DNA of 53,899 nucleotides from contig QHYJ01000040.1 of the NCBI GenBank assembly GCA_003223255.1, positions 1 to 53,899 on the forward strand. Direction: 5' to 3'. Below the pieces are notes generated by a model, which saw only the letters and a list, made by a program, of their open reading frames with translations, did not search any database and had not been told where the DNA came from. Shown one piece after another: positions 22,138 through 41,187 of the stretch. The DNA is from Acidobacteriota bacterium (GTDB lineage: Bacteria > Acidobacteriota > Terriglobia > Acidiferrales > UBA7541). The translations under genes and the position numbers were made by a program. Each line of letters starts with the position of its first letter. Within the stretch, counting starts at the first letter, position 1.

Positions 22138-25100
22138 TTAGAACGTGAATCGTCCGAGGATTTGCACGTTGCGCGGAGTGTCGATCGTGTAGGTAGGACG
22201 CCCAAAATTCGTGCCGTCATTTGGCGCCGTATCGGGAATGCCAAACACGTGGCGATTGAAGGCGTTCAGGAGCTCAAACCGCAGCGAAAACGTCAGGCGC
22301 TCACGGATCGGCACACTCTTCGTGAAGCTGAAGTCCTCATTGTAATAAGCCCAGTTGCGTATTTCTCCAGTCACGCGAGGGATATTGCCAAACACAAAAG
22401 GACCGCCGTTGCGGATTGCGTCTACGTTCAGATCCGTGAATGCGTTTCGGTTGAACATGACGTCCCCATTGCCCAAATTGAGGTGGCCGCTGGCGTACGC
22501 CGCGCTCTTGAGGCTTTGTCCCGCCACACGAGTGAAGTAGATACAGTTATCCCACCCGGGAATGCCAATCGCGCAGCCGAAGGAAATGGGTTCGCCCGAC
22601 ATATAGCGCTGCACTGCTCCTATGTCCCAGCCGCCCAGCACCCGGCTTAGCAGGCCATTGTTGAGCCGCTTCCTTCCGGAACCGAAGGGCAGTTGGTAGA
22701 TCCAACTAAGAACGAACGTTTGGGGGATGTCTTGAATGCTCAGCGCCTTCTCGTGATGCAAGTTCGAGGGGTCCTGCTCTTGACCGACTCCGCCATTGAT
22801 GAACGGAAGCGCGCTGTCGGCGTCCGTCAGGGTTTTTTCCCAGGTGTACGACGCCTGAAGATTCAAGCCGCTCCGGAAGCGCCGGTTCAGTGAAACCAGC
22901 AGCGCCTCATAGCTTGACATGCCCACATTCTGAAGACAGCAGTCCGTAGCGATGAAGCCATACTGCGGGAACGGGCGAAGCGCCTGCTCCACGTGGACAT
23001 TGGGACCCCACAATGTTGTAAAACCTGGAAACGGAGGCGTAACCCCGGCCGTATTGTTGGTAACAAGCTTTGTGAGTTGGTCGCCAAGTGAAAAATCGCT
23101 TTTCGGTATGTTGTTGATATTCTGAACGCCGGAGCGCAGGTTTTGCACGTGGTTGCCGAGATATCCCACGCTCAAGATGAGATCGCTCGCCAGTTCGTGC
23201 TGCACCTGCAAGGTCCATTCATCGACCATCGCTGGGCGGCCTTGATCTTTCCCGATGTACGAGCCTCCCACAAATGTGCCGTTAAAGATGCCAGGATCAA
23301 GATCCGGGGGCGGTGCGAATGCCGGGAAGCCGCTGTCGAGGTTGAAAGAAGGCGAAAAATTATCCGGACTTGGTTCCGACGGATTGGCCACGTAGCCCGT
23401 GTTCATGGCCCCTCCAAAATCCGCATACTGGAGCGGCCCGTAGAAGATGGCGAACCCGCCGCGGACAACGGTTTTGCCATGCAGTCTTTCCGGCGAATAC
23501 GCAAAGCCAATCCGCGGCGCGACATCTTTCCGCCAGGTGTCTGCCCAGGCCGTGTTGCAAATGTCGCAGTGCGAGCCAAAAACCAGGGCCCCGGGAATGC
23601 CGAACTGGGGGTCTATTGCTGTCAGGCTGAAGTTGGAAGTCTGGTCACGCGCTTCGCGCCGTGGCACGTCCACGTCGTAACGGATGCCCAGGTTCAGCGT
23701 CAAAGTGTGCGTGACTTTGAAGTCGTCTTGGGCGAAACCGGCCACATAATGCGAAGTCCAGCGCGGCTGCGACGTCACGATTCGCTGCCCGGCGCCGCAC
23801 GGGTCACCTAGTAAAAAGCTCGCGAAGCCATTGCCGCCCAGGGCCGTTTCTGTGGGGTCCGACGTTGTCTGCGCGCGGCAAAAGTTAAACGTCGGGCTGT
23901 TTCCGTTGATCGGCGAGTACTGCTGCCATCGGTAATCAAAGCCAAACTTCATGCTGTGTTTGCCGTGTTCCCAAGCTACGCTCTCGTAGAAGCGCAAGCC
24001 GTTATCCACGTTGTCGTCGTTCTGCGGCGGGTTTCCCAGGTTGTCAATCTGTTCTCCCACGGTGATCTGCGGAAAGTTCAGGGAATTTACGTTGCCAATG
24101 CCCAGCTTCTGCGACCAATTGACTCCCGCGAAAATAGCCTGAGCATAGTTTTTACTATTACTGCGGTTGGACCCAATGACCAGGTGATTGAGCAGCGTGG
24201 GGGTGAAAAAATAGTCCCAACCCAGGCGGAAAAAATGTGTCGTAAAATCCTGTTTCCAAGTCCTCGGATCAACCGGGTCTGGAAGGATGGGATTTCCCCC
24301 CGAAGTCCGACTGTTCTCGCGGGAGTTATAAGAGCCGAAGAATTTGCTTTTTTCCGAAAAGCTGTGGTCGATGCGGATGGTGGTCGCTGTGTTGGTTATG
24401 GGGATGGTGCTCGAAAACAAGAAATTGCTGAACTGAGCTGTCTTGTCGGTTGGCTCTGGCCAGAAGGGAAGCAAGTTCTTGGCGACAGCGCGGAAACGAC
24501 TGGGATCGATCTTGTTGCCCGGAAACTGCGTTCGGCAGAGAACGCCATTCACGATTCTCGTGGTAGCAGGATCGAAGATTTCTCCTTGATAGACCGGCGT
24601 GCCGTCGCAAGGATTTGTGCCAATGCGATTGCCCGTATTGAAAATGGCAGGCGATGAAAAATCCCCGTTGCGCATAGCGTCCGTAGGGACAGTGGACGGG
24701 TTTGTGGCTCCCAACTTATAGCCAAGCTGCTCCCAGGAAAAAAAGAAAAACGTCTTATCATGGCCGTTGTAAACCCTGGGAATCCAGACCGGTCCTCCAA
24801 GCGTTCCACCGTAATCGTTCTTCTTATCGACAGGCCGCGCATTTGTGGCCGCGCATGCTGCATTGCCCGCCGCGCACTGCGAACCGTTGAAATTGTTGAA
24901 CCAGGTGTTCGCGTCCAGATCTTCATTGCGGAAGATTTCGTAGGCGGTACCGTGAAAAGTGTTGGTTCCCGACTTTGTGACGAAGTTTTCGATGCCGCCC
25001 GTGGTTCGGCCGTATTCCGCGGCTGGCAGCGCGTCGGTAATCTTGAACTCTTGGATCGCTTCCACCGAAGGAGCTTCTTCGTCGAACGAAGACCCATTTT

Positions 25101-25719
25101 CACTGCGCGTCTGGCTTGCTCCGTCGATCAGCACTTCATTGGCAAAATTCTGGCCTCCCGCGATTTTCGAAATAAAAATCCCATTGTTGCTATTGGCCGT
25201 GCCGGGGCCCGTTGTTCCCGGCAGCAAAAACTCAAAGGCCTCCACCGCGCGCAAGGCCCCAACGCCTCCCAGGGGAAGGGGCAATTCGATGACTTGCCTG
25301 CTGGATACGACTCCCCCCACATCGGACGACTCAGCCTCCACATGAGGGGCTCCGGCATTTACCGTGACGCTCTCCGTTTGCGTCCCTACTTGCAGCGTAA
25401 TATTCAGCGCGCTGACGTTTTGGATTTGCACCACCACCCCGGTCAGCACCGCGCTCTTGAATCCCGGAGCCGTTGCCGTGACGTCGTACGTGCCCAGCGG
25501 CAGCTCTGGGAACCGGTACACGCCCGCGCTCGTCGACACGGTTGTCGTGGCCACACCCGTGTCGTGGTTCTTCGCTGTAACGGTGGCTCCCGCGATGACC
25601 GCTCCACTGGGGTCGGTGACCGTTCCCGCGAGCACGCCGCGTACCGACTGCGCCGTGAGAACCACGGGCACACATAGAAAAACACACAGGAAGGAGAGTA
25701 ATCGATAAACCAGTCGCAT
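22138..25719 (-). CDS. Oar-like TonB-dependent outer-membrane receptor
   Basis: The 1193-aa protein is read from ATG 25719, which has GGAG seven bases upstream and is followed by a clear signal peptide (RLVYRLLSFLCVFLCVPVVL, cleavage near LTAQ-S); the frame runs back to 25878 but those residues precede a proper signal. Next come the carboxypeptidase-regulatory-like domain (RGVLAGTVTDPSGAVIAGAT; YRFPELPLGTYDVTA), a plug-like region (SSRQVIELPLPLGG; VLIDGASQTRSENGSSF) and a long barrel that ends in the aromatic strand NVQILGRFTF. Unlike the receptor at 12.8 kb it is intact. It sits 186 bases downstream of the GH51 gene, so import of arabinose-containing oligosaccharides is a reasonable but unproven guess. 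Confidence 0.93.
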   Translation of the reverse strand: MRLVYRLLSFLCVFLCVPVVLTAQSVRGVLAGTVTDPSGAVIAGATVTAKNHDTGVATTTVSTSAGVYRFPELPLGTYDVTATAPGFKSAVLTGVVVQIQNVSALNITLQVGTQTESVTVNAGAPHVEAESSDVGGVVSSRQVIELPLPLGGVGALRAVEAFEFLLPGTTGPGTANSNNGIFISKIAGGQNFANEVLIDGASQTRSENGSSFDEEAPSVEAIQEFKITDALPAAEYGRTTGGIENFVTKSGTNTFHGTAYEIFRNEDLDANTWFNNFNGSQCAAGNAACAATNARPVDKKNDYGGTLGGPVWIPRVYNGHDKTFFFFSWEQLGYKLGATNPSTVPTDAMRNGDFSSPAIFNTGNRIGTNPCDGTPVYQGEIFDPATTRIVNGVLCRTQFPGNKIDPSRFRAVAKNLLPFWPEPTDKTAQFSNFLFSSTIPITNTATTIRIDHSFSEKSKFFGSYNSRENSRTSGGNPILPDPVDPRTWKQDFTTHFFRLGWDYFFTPTLLNHLVIGSNRSNSKNYAQAIFAGVNWSQKLGIGNVNSLNFPQITVGEQIDNLGNPPQNDDNVDNGLRFYESVAWEHGKHSMKFGFDYRWQQYSPINGNSPTFNFCRAQTTSDPTETALGGNGFASFLLGDPCGAGQRIVTSQPRWTSHYVAGFAQDDFKVTHTLTLNLGIRYDVDVPRREARDQTSNFSLTAIDPQFGIPGALVFGSHCDICNTAWADTWRKDVAPRIGFAYSPERLHGKTVVRGGFAIFYGPLQYADFGGAMNTGYVANPSEPSPDNFSPSFNLDSGFPAFAPPPDLDPGIFNGTFVGGSYIGKDQGRPAMVDEWTLQVQHELASDLILSVGYLGNHVQNLRSGVQNINNIPKSDFSLGDQLTKLVTNNTAGVTPPFPGFTTLWGPNVHVEQALRPFPQYGFIATDCCLQNVGMSSYEALLVSLNRRFRSGLNLQASYTWEKTLTDADSALPFINGGVGQEQDPSNLHHEKALSIQDIPQTFVLSWIYQLPFGSGRKRLNNGLLSRVLGGWDIGAVQRYMSGEPISFGCAIGIPGWDNCIYFTRVAGQSLKSAAYASGHLNLGNGDVMFNRNAFTDLNVDAIRNGGPFVFGNIPRVTGEIRNWAYYNEDFSFTKSVPIRERLTFSLRFELLNAFNRHVFGIPDTAPNDGTNFGRPTYTIDTPRNVQILGRFTF

Positions 25720-25905
25720 TTTTCCACTCCAGGCCAGAAGGAAGTGGCCCTCGGTTTTGCTCAGCCAGGCTTGCGGAACATCACCCAATACTTGCGACAC
25801 GCAGGAGGCACGGGCATCCGACGGGGCCGCCGCACGGACGCAGAGCGATATTGAAAGCGCTGCCACTCCGACGGTCAATCCGGTGATTACCGGATAGCGC
25901 TGTGC

Positions 25906-27996
25906 CTAATGACCTTCTGCAAAAACCGTGGTGGCGGGTTCCACCCAAGAAGGGAATTGGCTTTTCTTGCGAACCTCGATGACCGTGACACTCTCGTGCC
26001 GGAACGTGTAGTCCAGCTTCGCGCCTTGCAGTTTCACCTGGCTGGTGAGAGGAATTACTTTCTCGGGATGCACGTCGTCGTTCTGGTCATCAATCCTCGA
26101 AGCAAACAGAGTTTGCACCGAGCCATCCGCAGCAGGCGCAAATCCCGCTATAGAAACGTGCGCGTTGATATCTAACGTCAGGTGACGGTTCACGCAAAAC
26201 AGTGTCAGCCTGTCACCTGTGTCGTTTCGAGCCGCCACGACATCCAAATACGGAACCTCAGGAATAGCGGCCAGCCGCACCGAACCTTGCTGTATATCGT
26301 ATTTCTCCACCTGCGTTCGCGTTTCCACCGTCTGGCTGGCATCTGTATTCGAATACATGCGAAATACCCAGTATGCAGGCGCGCCGAATACGCGGCCGCG
26401 CTTTTTCCAAATTCCGCCAAACTCCATAATTCCCGTCATGTCCGCGATCGGCACGATATCCGCCACGCGCATCAGCATATTCAAAAATCCGCCGGTCGAG
26501 ATCGCGCCTCCCATATTGTCGTAGCGCGGCACGTTGCCTCCGCTGGCCCAGAAGAGCCACTCCGTGAACGCCGTTTTCACCCGGTCGCGCGCTTGGGAAT
26601 CTTGCTGGATTTGCTCATGCATCTCGCGTAGCTTCCGCTCCAATCCCACCGGCAGCGCGAAGTCTGCCTGCGCGATGAAATCCGCGGACGGATTCGGATG
26701 CGCCAGCTTGTCGTCCGTGACCACGAAGTGCGTCGAAAGGTAATCAAAGGCCTCCGCATGCGTTAGCTGCGCCTGGTTCCAATCGTGATAGAAGTCCTCG
26801 TCGCCACCCGTGGCGATCAAGCGTGAACTTAGATCCACCTTGCGAACCGCCTCACTGAACGCCTTCGTTCGCTCGGCCACTCTCTGCGGCGTCGGGTAGC
26901 CCACCTGAAACGTTCCCCACAACTCGTTACCCAGTTCCCAAAGCAATCCTCCGGAGTGATTGTCCCAATGTTCGTCCACATACTTCACCCATCCCGCCGC
27001 TTCCTCGGTTGTTCCGCTTCCCAGGTTGAGTGCAATCTGCGGCCGAGCGCCAATCAATTCGCAGAAGCGCAAAAATTCATCCGTCCCAAACGTGTTGTAT
27101 TCCGGCGTGCCCCACGAGATATTCAGCATGCTCACGCGCTTGTCGCGCGGCCCGATTCCGTCCTTCCAGTGATAAGCCGAGGTAAAATTCCCGCCGAACC
27201 GCAGCAGCGGCGACTTCATCGCTTTGGCCATGGCGATAATTTCCGGGTCCAGGCCAGCAACGTTGTCTGCCGGCATCAACGACGCCTCATCCACCAGCAC
27301 GCGAGTCTCATTGGCCACCGCAATCACAAAATCTGCCGGTTCCCGCACCGCGATCTTGCCCGCTTCCACGTCCAGAAAGAATTCGTAGCGCTTCCAATCG
27401 TTTCCGGAAAGCACAATCGCGCTCCTCGCAAACACATTTTCCGCATGATCGCGCTGCCGTATGGACACCTGGATCTTGCGCGGGCCGCTTTCGTATTTCG
27501 CGTACAAGCTTCCGGTGTAGTGCAGCGTTCGGTGGACGGGAAGATAGATTTTCTGCCGTACCCCCACATCCTGTTCCGGCAAGCCCATGAGAAAAAGCGA
27601 GCGGTAAGAATTGGCGGCGTCATTCCAGCGAGGCTCGTAGCGATTCCCTTGCTTGGCATCGAGCGGCTCCCACGGAAGCGGAAGGCCCAGCTCCGAGGCC
27701 CTCGCCAATGGGAGCTCGTCGCCAATCATCTTCTGGATGGTCCGGGCGCTCCAAAGATTGTCTTCGAAACTGGGATTCTCGAGAAGTTCGGCCCACAACC
27801 CGCCATAGATTGAATTGCCAATCGGCTCGAGAAAGGTCCCAAAAATCGTTCGCGGAATTTTGTAGCTCGAGGGGCTGGAAGCATCGATTGAGATGGTGGC
27901 TTCGGGGGCTACATCTCGTGGTGACCGCTGCGTGCGGAAGATCCAGGCAGCTGATAGGCAGAACGAGAAACAGAGCCAAGCGAATGTATTTCTCAT
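25906..27996 (-). CDS. GH51-type alpha-L-arabinofuranosidase-like glycoside hydrolase, exported
   Basis: The 696-aa protein starts at ATG 27996 with a signal peptide (RNTFAWLCFSFCLSAAWIF). The GH51 pattern follows: IFGTFLEPIGNSIYGGLWAE and NPSFE at the N-terminal barrel start, a carbohydrate-binding-like insertion (residues ~130-240), LLRFGGNFTSAYHWKDGIGP, then WELGNELWG carrying the acid/base Glu in the GNE motif, and FTEWLFWASG carrying the probable nucleophile Glu. A beta-sandwich C-terminal domain follows (VARNDTGDRLTLFCVNR). GH51 enzymes remove arabinofuranosyl side chains from arabinan or arabinoxylan. The alternative TTG at 28002 adds two residues. It probably heads an operon with the receptor and TPR genes. 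Confidence 0.85.
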   Translation of the reverse strand: MRNTFAWLCFSFCLSAAWIFRTQRSPRDVAPEATISIDASSPSSYKIPRTIFGTFLEPIGNSIYGGLWAELLENPSFEDNLWSARTIQKMIGDELPLARASELGLPLPWEPLDAKQGNRYEPRWNDAANSYRSLFLMGLPEQDVGVRQKIYLPVHRTLHYTGSLYAKYESGPRKIQVSIRQRDHAENVFARSAIVLSGNDWKRYEFFLDVEAGKIAVREPADFVIAVANETRVLVDEASLMPADNVAGLDPEIIAMAKAMKSPLLRFGGNFTSAYHWKDGIGPRDKRVSMLNISWGTPEYNTFGTDEFLRFCELIGARPQIALNLGSGTTEEAAGWVKYVDEHWDNHSGGLLWELGNELWGTFQVGYPTPQRVAERTKAFSEAVRKVDLSSRLIATGGDEDFYHDWNQAQLTHAEAFDYLSTHFVVTDDKLAHPNPSADFIAQADFALPVGLERKLREMHEQIQQDSQARDRVKTAFTEWLFWASGGNVPRYDNMGGAISTGGFLNMLMRVADIVPIADMTGIMEFGGIWKKRGRVFGAPAYWVFRMYSNTDASQTVETRTQVEKYDIQQGSVRLAAIPEVPYLDVVAARNDTGDRLTLFCVNRHLTLDINAHVSIAGFAPAADGSVQTLFASRIDDQNDDVHPEKVIPLTSQVKLQGAKLDYTFRHESVTVIEVRKKSQFPSWVEPATTVFAEGH

Positions 27997-28296
27997 ATTC
28001 AAAAACCCAGGATCCTTGTGCTCAGAGAAATTCTTGAGGCCACCTCACAACACATCCCAGGAGGCAGACCGCTTCATCCTCTTACTACAGATCCCCAGGT
28101 GGAAGAACTACAGAGTCGAATTCGTGCCCTATTTCTTGAAGCGGGGCGAGAAGCCGGAGCGCGCGAAAAGTTCATCCTGGGTCCAGCTCTGAGCCCCGCA
28201 ATCCCTAAGGCGAGCAGGCGAGCAACGATGATGTTCCAAAACTCTACGGATTGTGTAAACAGGTGTAGGGAGGCCCCAAAGAGAAGAACTCTGGAG
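27997..28296. other. Intergenic region upstream of the GH51 gene
   Basis: About 300 bases between the end of the Nudix gene and the GH51 start. Frames here are not protein-like. It should contain the promoter of the GH51-receptor-TPR unit, but I could not single one out. Confidence 0.35.
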
Positions 28297-28785
28297 CTAC
28301 CGGGAGCGGGCGGACTTCCTTGGTTCCGACGAGGAGAATCGAGCCAGGAGTCGCTCAAGAAACTCGCTCTGTCCCTTGTGGATACGGACCCGAGCTTCCT
28401 CAAGGCGAAACCAATTTGCGCGGTCAACTTCAGGGAACTCTTGCGTTTGACCGGATTTCGGTGGCCATTCCATGGAGAACGTATTGCTTCGAATTGTCGT
28501 TGAGCAATCGCCTTCGAGAGCCCAAGCGGTTACAACCTTTCCGCCCGGCTGGGTAACTTTGCCCAAGGGTATGAACTCCCCTTCGGGCTTAATCCCTGTT
28601 TCTTCTTCGAATTCACGCTTCGCGGCAGCCAGCTCGTCCTCCCCATCCAGGTATTCGCCCTTGGGGATCGACCAAGCTCCGATCTCCTTCTTCTGCCAGA
28701 ATGGTCCGCCGGGGTGAACCAGAAACACCTCTAGGTGCTGGCCACGCCGCCTGAACATCAATATACCGGCACTCCATCGTCGCAT
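28297..28785 (-). CDS. Nudix hydrolase
   Basis: The 162-aa protein starts at ATG 28785 (RRWSAGILMFRRRGQHLEVF). The Nudix box is complete: GEYLDGEDELAAAKREFEEE followed by TGI fits GX5EX7REUXEEXGU, so the metal-binding Glu residues are all present. SIPKGEYLDGEDE and WALEGDC are typical of the NTP-pyrophosphatase/Ap4A-type subgroup with a C-terminal EVDRANWFRLEEAR segment. It hydrolyses a nucleoside diphosphate linked to another group; the substrate is not evident. Its first 173 bases overlap, in another frame, the 3' end of the DUF4136-like gene, so the two genes have been brought together abnormally. Confidence 0.9.
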   Translation of the reverse strand: MRRWSAGILMFRRRGQHLEVFLVHPGGPFWQKKEIGAWSIPKGEYLDGEDELAAAKREFEEETGIKPEGEFIPLGKVTQPGGKVVTAWALEGDCSTTIRSNTFSMEWPPKSGQTQEFPEVDRANWFRLEEARVRIHKGQSEFLERLLARFSSSEPRKSARSR

Positions 28786-29302
28786 GACCGGTCCCTTCTA
28801 CAACGAAATCTGACGGTGCGGCAGAATATATTACCTGGATTACCTTCTTAGATTCCGCGTCCGTAATGTGGAGCACGATCTCGCCATTCACCTTCAGCCA
28901 TGTGGCCGGCGCAAGTGCTGGTCCATTCCCTAACCCATAGGCTGGAGTTCGCTCCGTAGGACTGAGGGGCGTGGAATTTGCTCGTTCCGGACTTCCCGCA
29001 AGGAGATCCATGTTTCCGCCTCCATCGTAGTGGATGTAGAAGTCCGGATGGTCTTTCGTTTCCTCAAAGTTCTTTGCGGCCAGCGCTTCGTTCACGGTCT
29101 TCACGATCTTGAGGTCCGTGAGCTCATTGGTATCGGGGTGCTGGCGAGTCATGAGTCGATTCTCGCGCCAGGCGTAGCGCTTGTGCTCGGAGAAGCTGAA
29201 ATGACTGCCGCAATCAGCAGGACCGTTGGCCGTTCCGCGTACGCTGGAGACGTTCGGGTCGAGCCAGTGTGCGGTCAAGGCTGCGCTTGTGGCATCAGAC
29301 AA
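28613..29302 (-). CDS. DUF4136-like protein with an out-of-frame 3' end inside the Nudix gene
   Basis: Central residues resemble DUF4136 lipoproteins: FSEHKRYAWRENRL, LKIVKTVNEALAAKNFEE, HPDFYIHYDGGG and VNGEIVLHITDAESKKVI (the strand before the usual WRG motif). The expected C-terminal part (WRGxA...NKAVAKMFKKYP) is missing; from about residue 175 the frame runs into the Nudix gene and yields arginine/glycine-rich nonsense to the stop at 28613. The start is also unclear: TTG 29302 is used here, and no lipobox is found, though the same frame extends upstream with a hydrophobic stretch (VILGLCLPTIRIL) lacking a normal start codon. It is probably a truncated gene. It is divergent from the membrane gene at 29398. 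Confidence 0.5.
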   Translation of the reverse strand: MSDATSAALTAHWLDPNVSSVRGTANGPADCGSHFSFSEHKRYAWRENRLMTRQHPDTNELTDLKIVKTVNEALAAKNFEETKDHPDFYIHYDGGGNMDLLAGSPERANSTPLSPTERTPAYGLGNGPALAPATWLKVNGEIVLHITDAESKKVIQVIYSAAPSDFVVEGTGHATMECRYIDVQAAWPAPRGVSGSPRRTILAEEGDRSLVDPQGRIPGWGGRAGCREA

Positions 29303-29397
29303 GATTCGAATGGTTGGAAGGCAAAGACCGAGGATAACTGCTTGGCCACAACCCGAGGGGTATTCTATAGCGCGCAGCCTTCTTACGGGGCTATCCG

Positions 29398-31161
29398 ATG
29401 GAATCCTTCACTGGCTTTGTGTCCCAACACATCCCTTGGTTCTGGGGTGTTCTGGCGTGGTCTCTGGCAATTCTTGGACTGATCGTGATTGCCGCAATTC
29501 CTGCTTATTTCCTCCTCTATCCGATAACCACAAATGTGCGGCGAGGAGTTGCATCCTACCTGTCTCGATTAGTCTCGAGGCAGTCGGCGGCACGCGAACG
29601 TCGGCGGCGGGCAGTGGAAGGGCTAATTGAGGACTTCAAGGACAATGCCGGGATTACTTACGTGTCCGAACGCCTCACGCGCGTTGAGGCAGCACTGGCC
29701 TCGTTTTCCGAGATCACCAAGAAGCTAAAACCCCAGCTCTCCCGAGTTTCTGATCTACAGCGCGCTTTTGACCGAGTCGGCAATAAGCTGACAGAATCTG
29801 CGTTGAAAGTAGCTCCTGCTTTTCCGAACCTGCCAACGGCCGATCAACTACCTGCACAGCACGGAAGCCTCCGAACCGCAAAGGCCCGCCTGTTCGTATC
29901 GAGCATGATTCTGATCGCCTTGATCTCGGTCAATACAGGAATGCTGGGTCAGATTCTGCGAGATTTGGGATTCATCCCCCATGACCTCACTTATTTTGGC
30001 ATTCCGCTGTACCTCGTTTTCGCCTTCATGCTTACGCTGGTCGAGGCTGGTTTGGGATATGTGCACACGGCCGGCCGGCCGACGCCGGACGAGGCTTCAC
30101 GCTTTGCGCTGTGGCCGCTCATTGCCGCGTGTTTCGCTGTAGTGATGGCCTGCGTGGAAGGCTTCTTTTATTCCCAGGTTGCTCCTAGCAGAAACTCATT
30201 ATTCTTCCTTTGGGGGGCCACTCTTGTACTTGTGCTTTTCGGCCTCGGAGCAATCTGGTCGGCATCGCTCGAGCGAATCGCGAAGTCTGCGGATCACTTG
30301 CCCGCGCTCACACGACGCCTGTGGCGATATCGCGAAAGATTTGATGCTGCCTGCGCGCGTGCAGGAAAAGATGCAGGCCGCCTGAGCGATGAAGTTGCGG
30401 CTATCCGGCAAGACCTCCAAGCCGCAGCCCAAGAAACAACGTCGCTCGTCGCTTCGGTGGCGGAACTGAGAGAGGGAGCAACCTCAGTGGATCCTGAGGA
30501 TGCTGCGGCACCCAGACAGCTAACGACGGCCGAAGCCCATCACTTTGCCTCTTTGTCTGGGATGTGGTCCCTGTTGACTTTGCTGAGTCTGCTCATCGTT
30601 ATAGCGAGCGGACTTTATGCGTTCTTTCCTTACATTGGAATAAGGGCAGCATGGCTCGTCTCCGTTGGCTTAGCTGCCTGTTTTTTGATCCTGGGATTGT
30701 TGCTGCCTCGGGGCGAACTGATTCTCGATGGAACGCGAACGCGACGGCTCATTGTTTCGGGGTCGCCCTGGAAGGGAAAAACCGCCGTCACCTTAGCTGT
30801 GATTGTTCTCACCGGTTTTGGCATACTCCTCTGGCGGATTGGAGTGGCTCGCTACCAGGCTGCCTTCTGCATTCTCATGCTTGTCCTTTGTGGTGCCCTG
30901 AGTGCCGCTGCGAGCCAGGCAAGTGCGACGGGCAAGGGCCTGCGCATATGGCTCCGTCTCTGTGTTGGCGTGCTCTTCGCTATGGTTGAGGAAGTCTTAC
31001 GACTGAGTGTAAGGATTTTTCTTGCGGTCGCCTTTTGTTTAGAGGTGGTGGCTCTCGCACTTGCCGCGCCGGCATTCCGGCTGCGCGGCCGCGAAGTGCC
31101 GTCGCTCCATGCAGTTGATGAGAGCAAGCGTCCGACGTTTTCGGTGCTTAGTGCATCTTAA
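29398..31161 (+). CDS. Polytopic membrane protein with two cytosolic/periplasmic coiled coils, unknown function
   Basis: A 587-aa protein that I do not recognise. It has an N-terminal membrane segment (VLAWSLAILGLIVIAAIPAY), a long charged helical region (residues ~45-140, including ERLTRVEAALASFSEITKKL), four membrane segments between about 165 and 290 (RLFVSSMILIALISVNTGML; GIPLYLVFAFMLTLVEAGLG; PLIAACFAVVMACVEGFF; FFLWGATLVLVLFGLGAIWS), a second coiled-coil region (~295-370, RLSDEVAAIRQDLQAAAQET), and about five more membrane segments to the C-terminus. The layout repeats: helix bundle, coiled coil, helix bundle. ATG 29398 has only a weak GGGG upstream. It is followed after 16 bases by the tandem-vWA lipoprotein gene, with which it surely forms a transcription unit. 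A scaffold or signalling role at the membrane is inference. Confidence 0.8.
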   Translation: MESFTGFVSQHIPWFWGVLAWSLAILGLIVIAAIPAYFLLYPITTNVRRGVASYLSRLVSRQSAARERRRRAVEGLIEDFKDNAGITYVSERLTRVEAALASFSEITKKLKPQLSRVSDLQRAFDRVGNKLTESALKVAPAFPNLPTADQLPAQHGSLRTAKARLFVSSMILIALISVNTGMLGQILRDLGFIPHDLTYFGIPLYLVFAFMLTLVEAGLGYVHTAGRPTPDEASRFALWPLIAACFAVVMACVEGFFYSQVAPSRNSLFFLWGATLVLVLFGLGAIWSASLERIAKSADHLPALTRRLWRYRERFDAACARAGKDAGRLSDEVAAIRQDLQAAAQETTSLVASVAELREGATSVDPEDAAAPRQLTTAEAHHFASLSGMWSLLTLLSLLIVIASGLYAFFPYIGIRAAWLVSVGLAACFLILGLLLPRGELILDGTRTRRLIVSGSPWKGKTAVTLAVIVLTGFGILLWRIGVARYQAAFCILMLVLCGALSAAASQASATGKGLRIWLRLCVGVLFAMVEEVLRLSVRIFLAVAFCLEVVALALAAPAFRLRGREVPSLHAVDESKRPTFSVLSAS

Positions 31162-31177
31162 TTCGTTCAATGCATTC

Positions 31178-32503
31178 ATGTTCTTTGTCACGTCCAAATC
31201 GCGCGTTGTACTGCTACTCGCGGTCGCAGTCGCTTTAGGAGGTTGCTCGGTCGATAAATCGGAATCCGCCGGTACCTCGGTGGTCGTGCTAGTGGACTTC
31301 AGCAAGAGCTTTGCGCCTCTCGTAAGTGATGAGCGAGCCCTGGAGGAACTGGCGGCCGCAACATCAGAACTCGCACAACGGGAATGGCAGCCCCCCGTAG
31401 AAATTCTGTGGTCGCGTATTCAGACTGCTAGTTTGATTTCAGGTCCGCTGTGTGGTCCTTTCCAGTTCCAGCAATCCCTTATTAAACGCGACAACGATCA
31501 TTCCTCTCAGATCGCGGACAAATTGCAGGCGTGTACGAAAGCCGTAGTGCGGGCTTCCACGGCTGGTTCCGAGAGGTCTGCGTATACGGATATTTCAGGA
31601 GCAGTGGCCCTGGCGGCAGACCAAGGGCAAAGCGTGCTCGGTCCGAAATACATAGTTATCGTCTCGGATTTCATAGAGGAGTTGCCACGAGGGAAGCGGC
31701 CAATCCGATTACAACTGAACGGCGAACGAGTTCTTCTGCTCCACCGGCTGGGACGGGAAAGGACGCCGCTAACCCTGGTTGACCATCTTGCGCGAATCGA
31801 GCGCTGGAGCGAAGCGCTGCGAGAAGCTGGAGCGGCATCGGTGGTAGCCCTTCCGTTGAGCTCTGTCACGCGGCAACGCATCGTGCGCGCTCTAGGAAGT
31901 GGAACTAAAGCAGGCACTGACGTCGTGGTGCTTCAAAACATGCCGGACACAGCGCGACCGGAGGTGCTCAAAACCATTGCAGCCACGTTGAACAAGGCTG
32001 CACGCGATTGGCAGCCCCCCGTCACCGTGACTTGGGCCGACTTGCGGGACGAATCTGCCATTCCGTTACAGAGGCCTCCGCTCGAATTTACTCCACGGTT
32101 GGTCAAGGCCCCGGATTCCTCAGGTCAGGATTTTCCCACGCTATTGAATGAATGTGCCGAGGGTATGCAGGGATTCTCGCCAGGAGCTAGGCTCGGAGAC
32201 GTGGCAGGTTCGTTGAGCTTTTATTCTTCGGCTGGAGTGCTCGATGCGGACCACGTCTTCCTGATTGTCTCCAGTTTCTCGAATTTGCCCAAAGACCGGC
32301 GCGACTTACCCCTGAACCTCAAAGGCGTAAGGGTCGCCATGCTGCCTGCCCCCAATCGCGCGGACGCTTCTGACGAAGACGCATACTTGGCGCGAGTTAC
32401 TCAGTGGGAGACCTGGCTTAAACAACAGCACGCGAACGTCTGTCGTATTCCCTTCAATGGCGTAACCACGGATTCGCTGATTGAATGCTTCCATGGATCC
32501 TAG
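31178..32503 (+). CDS. Lipoprotein with two tandem vWA-like halves, unknown function
   Basis: The 441-aa protein from ATG 31178 has a lipoprotein signal (RVVLLLAVAVALGGC, Cys23 as the lipidated residue). Residues ~33-235 form a vWA-like domain: VVVLVDFSKSF gives the MIDAS motif DxSxS (D40, S42, S44), YTDISGAVALAA the conserved Thr/Asp loop and YIVIVSDFIEE the third loop. Residues ~245-441 repeat the same order with weaker conservation: VVVLQNMPDT has lost the MIDAS, RDWQPPVTVTW mirrors REWQPPVEILW, HVFLIVSSFSNLP mirrors YIVIVSDFIEELP, and GVRVAMLPAP mirrors GERVLLLHR. It is thus an internal duplication with one metal-binding and one degenerate copy. The upstream membrane protein is the likely partner. 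I know no characterised system with this pair. Confidence 0.8.
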   Translation: MFFVTSKSRVVLLLAVAVALGGCSVDKSESAGTSVVVLVDFSKSFAPLVSDERALEELAAATSELAQREWQPPVEILWSRIQTASLISGPLCGPFQFQQSLIKRDNDHSSQIADKLQACTKAVVRASTAGSERSAYTDISGAVALAADQGQSVLGPKYIVIVSDFIEELPRGKRPIRLQLNGERVLLLHRLGRERTPLTLVDHLARIERWSEALREAGAASVVALPLSSVTRQRIVRALGSGTKAGTDVVVLQNMPDTARPEVLKTIAATLNKAARDWQPPVTVTWADLRDESAIPLQRPPLEFTPRLVKAPDSSGQDFPTLLNECAEGMQGFSPGARLGDVAGSLSFYSSAGVLDADHVFLIVSSFSNLPKDRRDLPLNLKGVRVAMLPAPNRADASDEDAYLARVTQWETWLKQQHANVCRIPFNGVTTDSLIECFHGS

Positions 32504-32572
32504 ACCGGGCTTGGTCTTAGCCCTGCCGAGCATGCCGGGCGGCGCAAGTGATTCCCGCAAGACCGGCTATAA

Positions 32573-39868: not shown

Positions 39869-39963
39869 TCCTAACGGATGAAGGCTTTCTCCATTTCCAG
39901 CCGAGTCAGGACACCCATCACTACCATAGCCCACCGATGAGGATGCTACATTCCCGTAACCAC

Positions 39964-40503
39964 CTAATGTACTGACGGTTTTCCCCCGCAAAGTTGAATC
40001 GCCTGCTTGAAGGCTTTCGCGAAACGTCTGGCGTTATCTCCGTTATCAAAGCCAAGTTCAACCCACGAGTGTTTGTTCTTTTCTTCGGCCTTGCCACCCG
40101 GCTGAGTAAAAGATTCCGTGACGCTTTTTTCGCTCTTCGTTGTTTCTGCGACTACGGCATTCTCGAAGGGATTGTCTTTCACCAAAGCTACGCTATTGGG
40201 GTCAAGGTCTTTCAGCGAAAAGTGGTAGGTGTGGGTGCCGACATCTTTATAATTCAAGGTAACGGACCACGTTATCGTGGCGAGACAACCATGACTATCG
40301 AAAGTGGTCACGTCATGGCGCGGCTCGCAGTTGGGGGTACCCAGCTTACATAATCCCTTGTCCGTATTTCTCTGCCCAGTGAACTGGCTTCCGTTATCCG
40401 CCACAAAATTGTGCATCCACGCCAAAGTATCTTCCAAACTAGCGGGTTGTTGGGCATAAGCGGTCACGGTCACCATGACCAGGAGGACCGGCGTTTTTCG
40501 CAT
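39964..40503 (-). CDS. Small secreted protein of unknown function
   Basis: The 179-aa protein from ATG 40503 starts with a signal peptide (RKTPVLLVMVTVTAYAQQ, cleavage near AYA-Q). The mature part begins SLEDTLAWMHNFVADNG, contains four Cys residues (KLGTPNCEP, DSHGCLATITW, IQLCGG) and a beta-rich middle (YHFSLKDLDPNSVAL), and ends in a helix NARRFAKAFKQAIQLCGG. The LEDTLxW(M)...FA.A..HA.xLC architecture occurs in acidobacterial secreted hypotheticals; no function is known to me. Confidence 0.75.
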   Translation of the reverse strand: MRKTPVLLVMVTVTAYAQQPASLEDTLAWMHNFVADNGSQFTGQRNTDKGLCKLGTPNCEPRHDVTTFDSHGCLATITWSVTLNYKDVGTHTYHFSLKDLDPNSVALVKDNPFENAVVAETTKSEKSVTESFTQPGGKAEEKNKHSWVELGFDNGDNARRFAKAFKQAIQLCGGKPSVH

Positions 40504-41187
40504 GGAATCAACTCCGATGCAGGCAAGCCTATCGTGTGAAGGCTGCGGCTTTCAATCGCTACTTTTCGGAGGGTCGCGGAGAACCCGCCTGGGGCGCCCC
40601 ACGGATTCATGGCGAGCTGCTCCTCCCCAACCAAATACGCCTTCTTTTCCGGCTAACGCGTTCCATGTTACTTAGCCTAGTTTGTTTTGTAATTTCTGAT
40701 TCGAGGCATCGGGCCGTAACCGTAGGAGTGGCGGCAGGGGCAGCGCTTTGTGCCCTTCGTCTTCTGTCGCTCCTCCCCGAATGCGCCGTTCCAAATGTAA
40801 CTGAAGGAGCTCGCATTTGAAGGCCAGTTTCCCAACTGAATCCCACCCACGGCGGGTTCACTCGAGAATTTACCGCTTCATTACCGCTGATTTGCGCTTT
40901 AGCAAGGTACAGTTTCGAAACTTTCGTTATACTAGGCGGGAAAACGGAGGAAATCAGGGTCACCCTCGCCGCAGCGAAGCAGCCCAACTGGCGTTTTGCC
41001 AGTGCAGCAGTCTACAAGACAGTCGCTAGCATCTAGGCGATGCCGCGCGTTTCATACGTCAAGATTCCGTTACGGGTTTGATTAACTGAGGGCAGAAACA
41101 GTCAAAAGACCTTATTGCTGCCCCCTGGCAGCCGCTGCCTGAAGAACCTTCGGCGTGCGACGCTTGTGGCTGGTCAGGAAGGTAGAA
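40504..41187. other. 684-bp region without recognisable gene
   Basis: Frames on both strands up to ~126 codons (minus 40987-40607) are rich in Arg/Ser and do not resemble proteins. No tRNA-like cloverleaf, terminator or repeat was recognised. The region presumably contains promoters for the two divergent flanking genes. Confidence 0.35.

Follow-up and report, generated by a model that had tools for sequence, protein, structure and literature searches.

A membrane protein gene paired with a tandem vWA-like lipoprotein gene in an acidobacterium, and its possible kinship with a four-gene envelope cassette

Two adjacent genes of an acidobacterium raise the question of what a large membrane protein and a lipoprotein with two vWA-like halves might do together, neither of them fitting any Pfam, NCBIfam or PADLOC family. 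The genes are located in a stretch of 53,899 nucleotides (contig QHYJ01000040.1, assembly GCA_003223255.1; hereafter the window) and encode the membrane protein MP and the predicted lipoprotein LP (Table 1).

Table 1. Positions of the features of the MP-LP locus in the window
Feature	Position	Strand	Basis
Upstream block, possible regulatory region	29298..29371	+	conserved together with both genes, blastn
MP, polytopic membrane protein, 587 aa	29398..31161	+	sequence, hydropathy; no convincing family match
Junction of 14-residue MP deletion, after S267	30198..30199	+	alignment
LP, predicted lipoprotein of 441 aa with two vWA-like halves homologous to each other	31178..32503	+	sequence, alignments
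LP signal segment, ending in lipobox-type LGGC; C23 at 31244-31246	31178..31246	+	sequence
LP half 1, residues 30-244, full metal-site pattern	31265..31909	+	alignments, profile comparisons
DFSKS (D40-x-S42-x-S44), MIDAS-type motif of LP half 1	31295..31309	+	invariant in 3/3 aligned sequences
LP half 2, residues 245-441, without the metal-site residues but with purifying selection kept	31910..32500	+	alignments, dN/dS

The gene pair and its conservation

Sixteen bases separate the MP stop codon from the ATG of LP, and the coordinates given by the initial annotation are correct. The open reading frame listing offers TTG 31061 as an LP start, but the alignment of the orthologous proteins begins at about 31178, which makes that start unlikely. 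Among four genomes belonging to one genus, homology is limited to the two genes and about 75 upstream bases, and the flanks mostly differ and are functionally unrelated. The upstream block matches locus L015 at 80% and L016 at 78% identity, and L017 at 91% over 29328-29371 (blastn); a promoter consensus looked for in 29298-29371 was absent. Adjacency of the two genes had been set as a test beforehand, and MP was found beside LP in all four genomes of the genus in which LP orthologues were found. MP and LP constitute a real two-gene unit. The pair is rare, being present in 4 of the 36 genus members searched. Counts of 4/61 for each protein were obtained after dropping two chance matches (5/61 each with them), namely a 115-residue MP match with five stops in G033 (E 8e-4) and a 70-residue LP match in G027 (E 3.5e-4); both loci hold unrelated genes, and the G027 frame is presumably a transcription-repair factor. 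No relative of MP was detectable beyond its own genus or in plasmids, and none of LP in plasmids or viral contigs. Across 6 pairs of MP sequences dN/dS was 0.14-0.21; LP gave 0.18-0.20 (3 pairs), with 0.16-0.25 in half 1 and 0.13-0.16 in half 2: in intact copies both genes and both halves are under purifying selection.

Kyte-Doolittle hydropathy gives MP about ten membrane segments (residues 11-47, 160-188, 196-224, 233-262, 265-295, 382-418, 412-444, 460-486, 480-510 and 522-562), in agreement with the polytopic protein first proposed. The final segment is possibly two. Charged, partly coil-like stretches span residues 48-159 and 296-381. Two coiled-coil regions had been annotated, for which support is partial: a crude heptad filter flags residues 328-359 alone. 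Library matches at 86-140, 286-356 and 272-360 are of the coil type and unconvincing; the phrog_726 match (PHROG, E 5e-6, residues 272-360) falls mostly inside the coil stretch. No signal of an internal repeat was obtained for MP, and the AlphaFold model of its orthologue in L016, built from 4 near-identical sequences, is too poor for reading a fold (pLDDT 37.3).

LP has a single N-terminal hydrophobic segment, ending in LGGC23, which we take to be a lipobox. Its description as two related halves, one with a full metal site and one that has lost it, was upheld throughout. Comparison of the half-1 and half-2 alignments with hhalign gave 99% (E 6.2e-18, 194 columns), which puts the duplication far above chance. 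The MIDAS residues of half 1 (DxSxS, Thr loop and Asp loop) are all present as D40-F-S42-K-S44, T137-D138 and S163-D164-F165, and are invariant in the three sequences aligned. At the matching places half 2 carries Q253-N254-M255, G340-D341 and S365-S366-F367, with all three metal-site elements lost.

A relative of LP beside motor-type genes

A tandem relative of LP is encoded in another acidobacterium (G253; 29% identity, E 2.6e-36), where the LP-like gene is directly followed by a MotA/ZorA-like coiled-coil gene and then by a MotB-like gene. The contig ends inside the LP-like gene, and the neighbourhood is readable downstream only. Of the tandem LP genes, only this one adjoins a tolQ/motA-like gene, weakly so by family score, and its LP-like protein has no relative in plasmids. 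Relatives of the G253 motor-type gene belong to a four-gene cassette carried by alphaproteobacterial plasmids, such as pR132502 of Rhizobium leguminosarum WSM1325, and by a further acidobacterial genus (g93). In this cassette gene1 encodes a membrane protein with 4 TM, gene2 a protein with a single vWA-like domain, a D-x-T/S-D motif and a membrane anchor, gene3 a MotA/ZorA-like coiled-coil protein, and gene4 a MotB/OmpA-like protein whose membrane helix carries an acidic residue. The MotA-like status of gene3 is drawn from sub-threshold matches (best Pfam E 0.021, 4/10 members), and its ZorA matches are coil-driven. The cassette probably encodes an ion-driven trans-envelope machine.

When LP half 1 was compared with the gene2 profile, the match reached 39%, above 202/202 background proteins, and a global alignment kept 185 columns in register (E 6e-5); the reversed control reached 1.7%. 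Against the same profile, 6/202 background proteins score as high as LP half 2 and 8/202 as high as the G253 protein alone, and a search of the window with the gene2 HMM (hmmsearch, E 0.1) returned nothing. The match of half 1 to gene2 is moderate, and the two may be kin. A vWA fold of LP, for which Pfam gave no direct match, is putative and would follow from a chain leading from half 1 to the gene2 family and from there to canonical vWA. As regards the second step, gene2 matches a canonical vWA profile of five sequences at 56% (E 1.2e-4), and only the profile's own seed vWA protein scores higher. The direct comparison of the half-1 profile with the canonical one gives 4.5%, a score that among 202 background proteins only the seed surpasses; 6/202 lie above the single half 1 and 16/202 above the combined halves. 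The AlphaFold model of LP (pLDDT 38.8, from 3 near-identical sequences) is too poor for fold reading and has alternating helices and strands only, and no relevant entry emerged from PDB sequence searches with the profiles of LP, gene2 and gene3.

The resemblance of the window's pair to the cassette is partial. The G253 tandem protein occupies the place of gene2 before gene3 and gene4, and gene2, like LP half 1, is a vWA-like envelope protein. However, gene2 has one domain, D-x-T/S-D and a membrane anchor, whereas LP is tandem, with DxSxS and a lipobox. Cassette profiles revealed no relatives of gene3 or gene4 in the window or in L015-L017, where gene1 was also absent; gene3 was not found in the window's own genome (best E 0.08), nor gene1 in G253 or in the four genomes carrying the pair. 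Kinship of MP with gene1 or gene3 was considered and is not supported, no homology being detectable, though the central part of MP shares the gene1 layout of a charged stretch, four membrane segments and a second charged stretch. With MP showing no such kinship and gene1 undetected in G253 and the pair genomes, only one member of the pair, LP, can be tied to the cassette.

Proposed explanation and its alternatives

We tentatively prefer, at somewhat less than even confidence, the explanation that MP and LP work together as a single complex of the envelope, a motor-less and rebuilt offshoot of a cassette-type envelope machine in which LP is a doubled gene2-like subunit. A lipid anchor would keep LP outside the inner membrane, where half 1 may bind a divalent metal and would take hold of a partner, either a protein or the wall, by one of its acidic side chains. 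The metal-less half 2 could give shape, dimerise or dock on MP, which would cross the inner membrane and relay the state of LP to its charged cytoplasmic helices. By descent LP may be a doubled version of the cassette's vWA-like subunit, and the pair is read as motor-less in the window's lineage because its neighbourhood lacks motor-type genes and a search of the genome for a MotA-like relative of the gene3 kind found none. A wider reading is more doubtful. According to it, Alphaproteobacteria and Acidobacteriota would share an undescribed class of vWA-containing ion-driven trans-envelope machines (gene1 to gene4), often located close to the gene of a nuclease that looks exported and with a possible action on incoming DNA, and MP-LP would be a two-gene derivative without the motor, the duplicated vWA lipoprotein and the ten-segment membrane protein replacing the rest.

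MP and LP might instead simply serve at the surface as a sensor or for adhesion, or work apart, LP as an adhesin and MP as a transporter. Neither would then be kin to motors, and the likeness of half 1 to gene2 would have arisen by convergence within vWA-like folds. Such a pair would agree with an MP that matches no cassette protein, an LP-gene2 match of just 39% and the absence of motor genes nearby. We consider it unlikely, since the tandem relative in G253 directly precedes motor-type genes, half 1 exceeds every background protein against gene2, and MP and LP stay together while their flanks change.

Conversely, the pair may still be motor-driven, an ExbB/TolQ/MotA-type motor being encoded elsewhere or the glutamates of MP carrying ions, with LP transducing the force. 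The motor-type neighbours in G253 favour this, and vWA force transducers have been proposed for TolQ-like 5:2 motors; a membrane helix with an SHLS motif or proton-binding Asp anchors them, and their genes adjoin a tolQ-like gene (PMC12204202). The likeness, an envelope vWA-type protein tied by gene order to a MotA/TolQ-like protein, extends to the G253 relative only; LP differs in having a lipobox rather than the transducers' membrane helix, no SHLS and no tolQ/motA-like neighbour. Five glutamates of MP (E216, E254, E531, E532 and E549) lie within hydrophobic segments and are invariant in 4/4 sequences, but these are 87-89% identical and their invariance says little. With the gene3 and gene4 searches described above also against it, this possibility is judged quite unlikely.

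It is improbable that the pair is decaying, left over by descent from a larger machine and by now dispensable. The AA92 copy of LP is split by a 77-base gap, the window's MP is short of 14 residues relative to 3/3 orthologues, in the loop preceding the fifth membrane segment, and few genus members carry the pair. However, the gap may be an assembly error, and in intact copies dN/dS stays within 0.13-0.25 for each gene and each LP half.

The remaining candidates are very improbable. The aerotolerance and chaperone (Bat/MoxR-type) systems, with which the pair had initially been compared for having a vWA-like protein adjoining a membrane protein, did not prove a good parallel, as no MoxR-type AAA+ gene is present in the flanking proteins scanned (7 from the window, 5 from L015-L017), MP and LP have no Pfam or NCBIfam match to those families, and the G253 relative, with its MotA-like and MotB-like genes immediately downstream, suggests a link to energised machines spanning the envelope instead. 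An equally poor prospect is the membrane-remodelling vWA/FtsZ-like-1/OmpA operon, which likewise pairs vWA, OmpA-family and membrane proteins (PMC2875224), but no FtsZ-like, GTPase or kinase gene occurs in the same scanned proteins, and the neighbours of LP relatives are MotA/MotB-like. No MotA-type match was obtained in that set either.

Zorya, an anti-phage system, offers a likeness in outline to the cassette: gene3 combines a membrane part with a long cytoplasmic coil, as ZorA does, and gene4 a membrane helix with a peptidoglycan-binding-type domain, as ZorB does, while vWA is mentioned zero times in the text of the paper (PMC11890865). In contrast, the window pair has neither a ZorA-like nor a ZorB-like gene, and PADLOC returned no Zorya match for MP and LP. 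The initial annotation knew of no system with this pairing, and none was found in the libraries or papers searched; relatives do exist, however, in the form of the G253 tandem protein beside MotA/MotB-like genes.

The search for relatives of LP led to an unannotated four-gene cassette of two phyla, often near a thermonuclease-type gene and recorded only as 'hypothetical' (mostly) or 'OmpA family'. If the motor-less offshoot explanation is true, related vWA-type subunits would exist with a motor set (G253 and the plasmid cassettes) and without one (MP-LP), and their comparison would show what the motor contributes. The pair would then make it possible to test how vWA domains function alongside energised complexes of the inner membrane.

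Features and distribution of the gene pair

The polytopic membrane protein (MP) and the predicted two-half vWA-like lipoprotein (LP) are encoded by adjoining genes on the same strand with a gap of 16 bases, as the initial annotation had claimed. No convincing match was found for either protein in Pfam, NCBIfam or PADLOC, nor for LP among PDB sequences, and the single PHROG match of MP falls in a mostly coil-like stretch. Hydropathy bears out about 10 membrane segments in MP, in a layout of 1 + 4 + 5 with charged stretches between the groups (48-159 and 296-381), while the coiled coil that had also been proposed is supported only in part. LP starts with a signal segment ending in LGGC, followed by the two halves. 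Compared to 3/3 orthologues, the MP of the window misses 14 residues at 30198/30199, and the loop before the fifth membrane segment is gone.

Coordinates and properties of the features analyzed (coordinates without prefix are those of the window)
Feature	Coordinates	Strand	Length	Description
MP	29398-31161	+	587 aa	polytopic membrane protein
LP	31178-32503	+	441 aa	two-half vWA-like lipoprotein
gene1			~480 aa	four membrane segments flanked by charged stretches
gene2			~280 aa	one membrane anchor, vWA-like
gene3				MotA-like with coil
gene4				MotB-like; OmpA-type domain in some
Thermonuclease-type gene	L021:9265-9957; L025:7956-8699; L028:2813-3478; L046:4111-4788; others

Both proteins were present in four of the 61 genomes searched (G000, which is the window's own, G018, G019 and G025), all of the same genus; the set comprised the window's genome and 60 relatives, 36 belonging to the genus, and one chance match was dropped per protein. 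In a class draw LP was found in 4/399 genomes, the identical four, and in a phylum draw MP was found in 1/396, the window's own. In one scan of a genome collection, LP matched at three loci, in soil MAGs labelled Acidobacteria gp2 AA90, AA93 and AA92. At the pair loci, similarity to the window extends over about 29371-32513, with a short additional block at 29298-29371, and in most cases ends at those edges; AA92 additionally shares an upstream Nudix stretch (28336-28802) and two more stretches with the window, and AA90 two short stretches elsewhere. The flanking proteins scanned bear no relation to one another. The conservation pattern is what two cooperating genes would be predicted to leave, with no third neighbour required.

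Some features of the surroundings were also recorded. The stretch 39929-40568, one of the two further stretches shared with AA92 and 10 kb downstream of the pair, matches L017:737-1378 with 87% identity, just upstream of MP in AA92, and represents a local rearrangement around the pair. Two minus-strand genes in 22138-28002 are ordinary sugar-utilisation neighbours: one is alpha-L-arabinofuranosidase-like, and the gene next to it encodes a beta-barrel protein of the outer membrane that contains a carboxypeptidase-like regulatory domain.

Duplication and probable metal site of LP

Profile comparison of LP half 1 (30-244) and half 2 (245-441), using alignments that took in a distant relative from another acidobacterium (G253), gave 99% and E 6.2e-18 over 194 columns. 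The internal repeat proposed in the initial annotation is real, judged from these profiles, and the loss of the metal site in its second half was likewise confirmed: D40-x-S42-x-S44, T137 and D164 are all present in half 1, while half 2 has 0/3 of these elements (DxSxS, Thr and Asp). In three pairs dN/dS was 0.13-0.16 for half 2 versus 0.16-0.25 for half 1. Half 2, at least as constrained without the metal-site residues, has thus been retained for something other than that site. In the LP of AA92, 77 bases are absent exactly between the halves and the frame is split (L017:4150-4200; same contig as G018:C96), which may reflect decay or misassembly, or else a half 1 that is separable.

Possible kinship with a cassette of motor-type genes

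Searching the 396 genomes of the phylum draw with the LP profile added one genome, G253 (E 2.6e-36); in its class 1/38 genomes matched, namely G253 itself. The G253 protein is a tandem with 29% identity to LP, its start lost at a contig end; Thr and Asp loops are readable in both halves, and the first motif of the second half is D-x-K-x-H, not DxSxS. Directly 3' lies a protein whose ~4 membrane segments are accompanied by a long tail rich in coil, followed by a protein with a membrane helix at its start. The coil protein matched PADLOC ZorA models (E 1.3e-7, mainly the tail), and its membrane part matched Pfam MotA_ExbB below threshold (E 0.021), a match found in 4/10 members of its family at any E up to 10.

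A tblastn search placed relatives of the coil protein on plasmids from Rhizobium, Sinorhizobium, Microvirga, Paracoccus and Tistrella, 20 records in all. The ten neighbourhoods examined (nine annotated, one without annotation) contain a four-gene cassette, gene1 to gene4, in which gene2 encodes a single vWA-like protein, gene3 the MotA/ZorA-like coil protein and gene4 a MotB/OmpA-like protein. This is conserved and unannotated, on alphaproteobacterial plasmids and in one acidobacterial genus, g93 (L021-L030 and L046-L051; e.g., L025:3547-7955). Relatives of gene1 and gene2 occupy an identical set of 24 plasmid records, and the gene3 membrane part detected 13/396 phylum genomes, G253 and 12 of g93. 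Genes 1 to 3 were recognised in 6/6 g93 regions and 10/10 plasmid loci, with profiles built from nine of those ten, and the N-terminal membrane helix of gene4 carries T-x-A-E in 13/13 loci where gene4 was read. A thermonuclease-type gene lies within the examined stretch at 6/10 plasmid and 5/6 g93 loci, and none was found in the window, at L015-L017 (pair loci in other genus genomes) or on the 5-kb G253 contig. Four of its sequences show, by eye, a signal-like N-terminal segment, and its product is a possible nuclease partner of the cassette machine.

The E-values linking LP, gene2 and vWA come from single comparisons with shallow profiles; ranks among 202 background proteins were relied on instead. 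The gene2 profile (16 sequences) scored 39% against LP half 1 (E 3e-4), with 0/202 as high; neither half 2 (score reached by 6/202) nor the G253 protein by itself (8/202) stands out. A global alignment keeps the combined halves and gene2 in register across 185 columns, at 36% and E 6e-5, versus 1.7% for the reversed profile. Against a canonical vWA profile, a shallow one of five sequences, gene2 reached 56% (E 1.2e-4) and the LP half-1 profile 4.5%, in each case with only the seed protein above; single-sequence half 1 was equalled by 6/202 and the combined halves by 16/202. Plain hmmsearch with the gene2 model gave no match in the window, and MP showed no link to gene1 or gene3 comparable to that between half 1 and gene2. 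At E 1, gene1 was not found in G253 or the four pair genomes, a g93 genome serving as positive control, and no gene3 relative was found in the genome of the window, where the best match (E 0.08) lies in the coil.

Known systems and proposed working

In one report, vWA proteins have been proposed as transducers of TolQ-like motors, with a membrane-helix anchor and a gene beside the motor (PMC12204202). LP has neither such an anchor nor an adjoining motor gene, and thus is not classed with the transducers as described there. Zorya (PMC11890865) resembles the four-gene cassette in outline, but not the MP-LP pair. In contrast to the vWA/FtsZ-like/OmpA operons described in PMC2875224, no FtsZ-like gene occurs among the scanned flanking proteins of the pair. 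No paper was recognised as describing pair or cassette, within a literature coverage without most subscription papers and bioRxiv.

We infer the localisation, the ligand and the output. Most likely, LP would be lipid-anchored in the envelope, its second half shaping the protein or docking on MP. LP would bind a partner via the metal site of half 1, and MP would relay the state of LP to the cytoplasm. One of the two main rivals is that the pair uses a motor in trans; the other is that it serves simply in sensing or adhesion and has no motor in its ancestry, against which stands the rank of half 1 with gene2. The kinship of LP suggests that it may descend from a motor-bearing machine.
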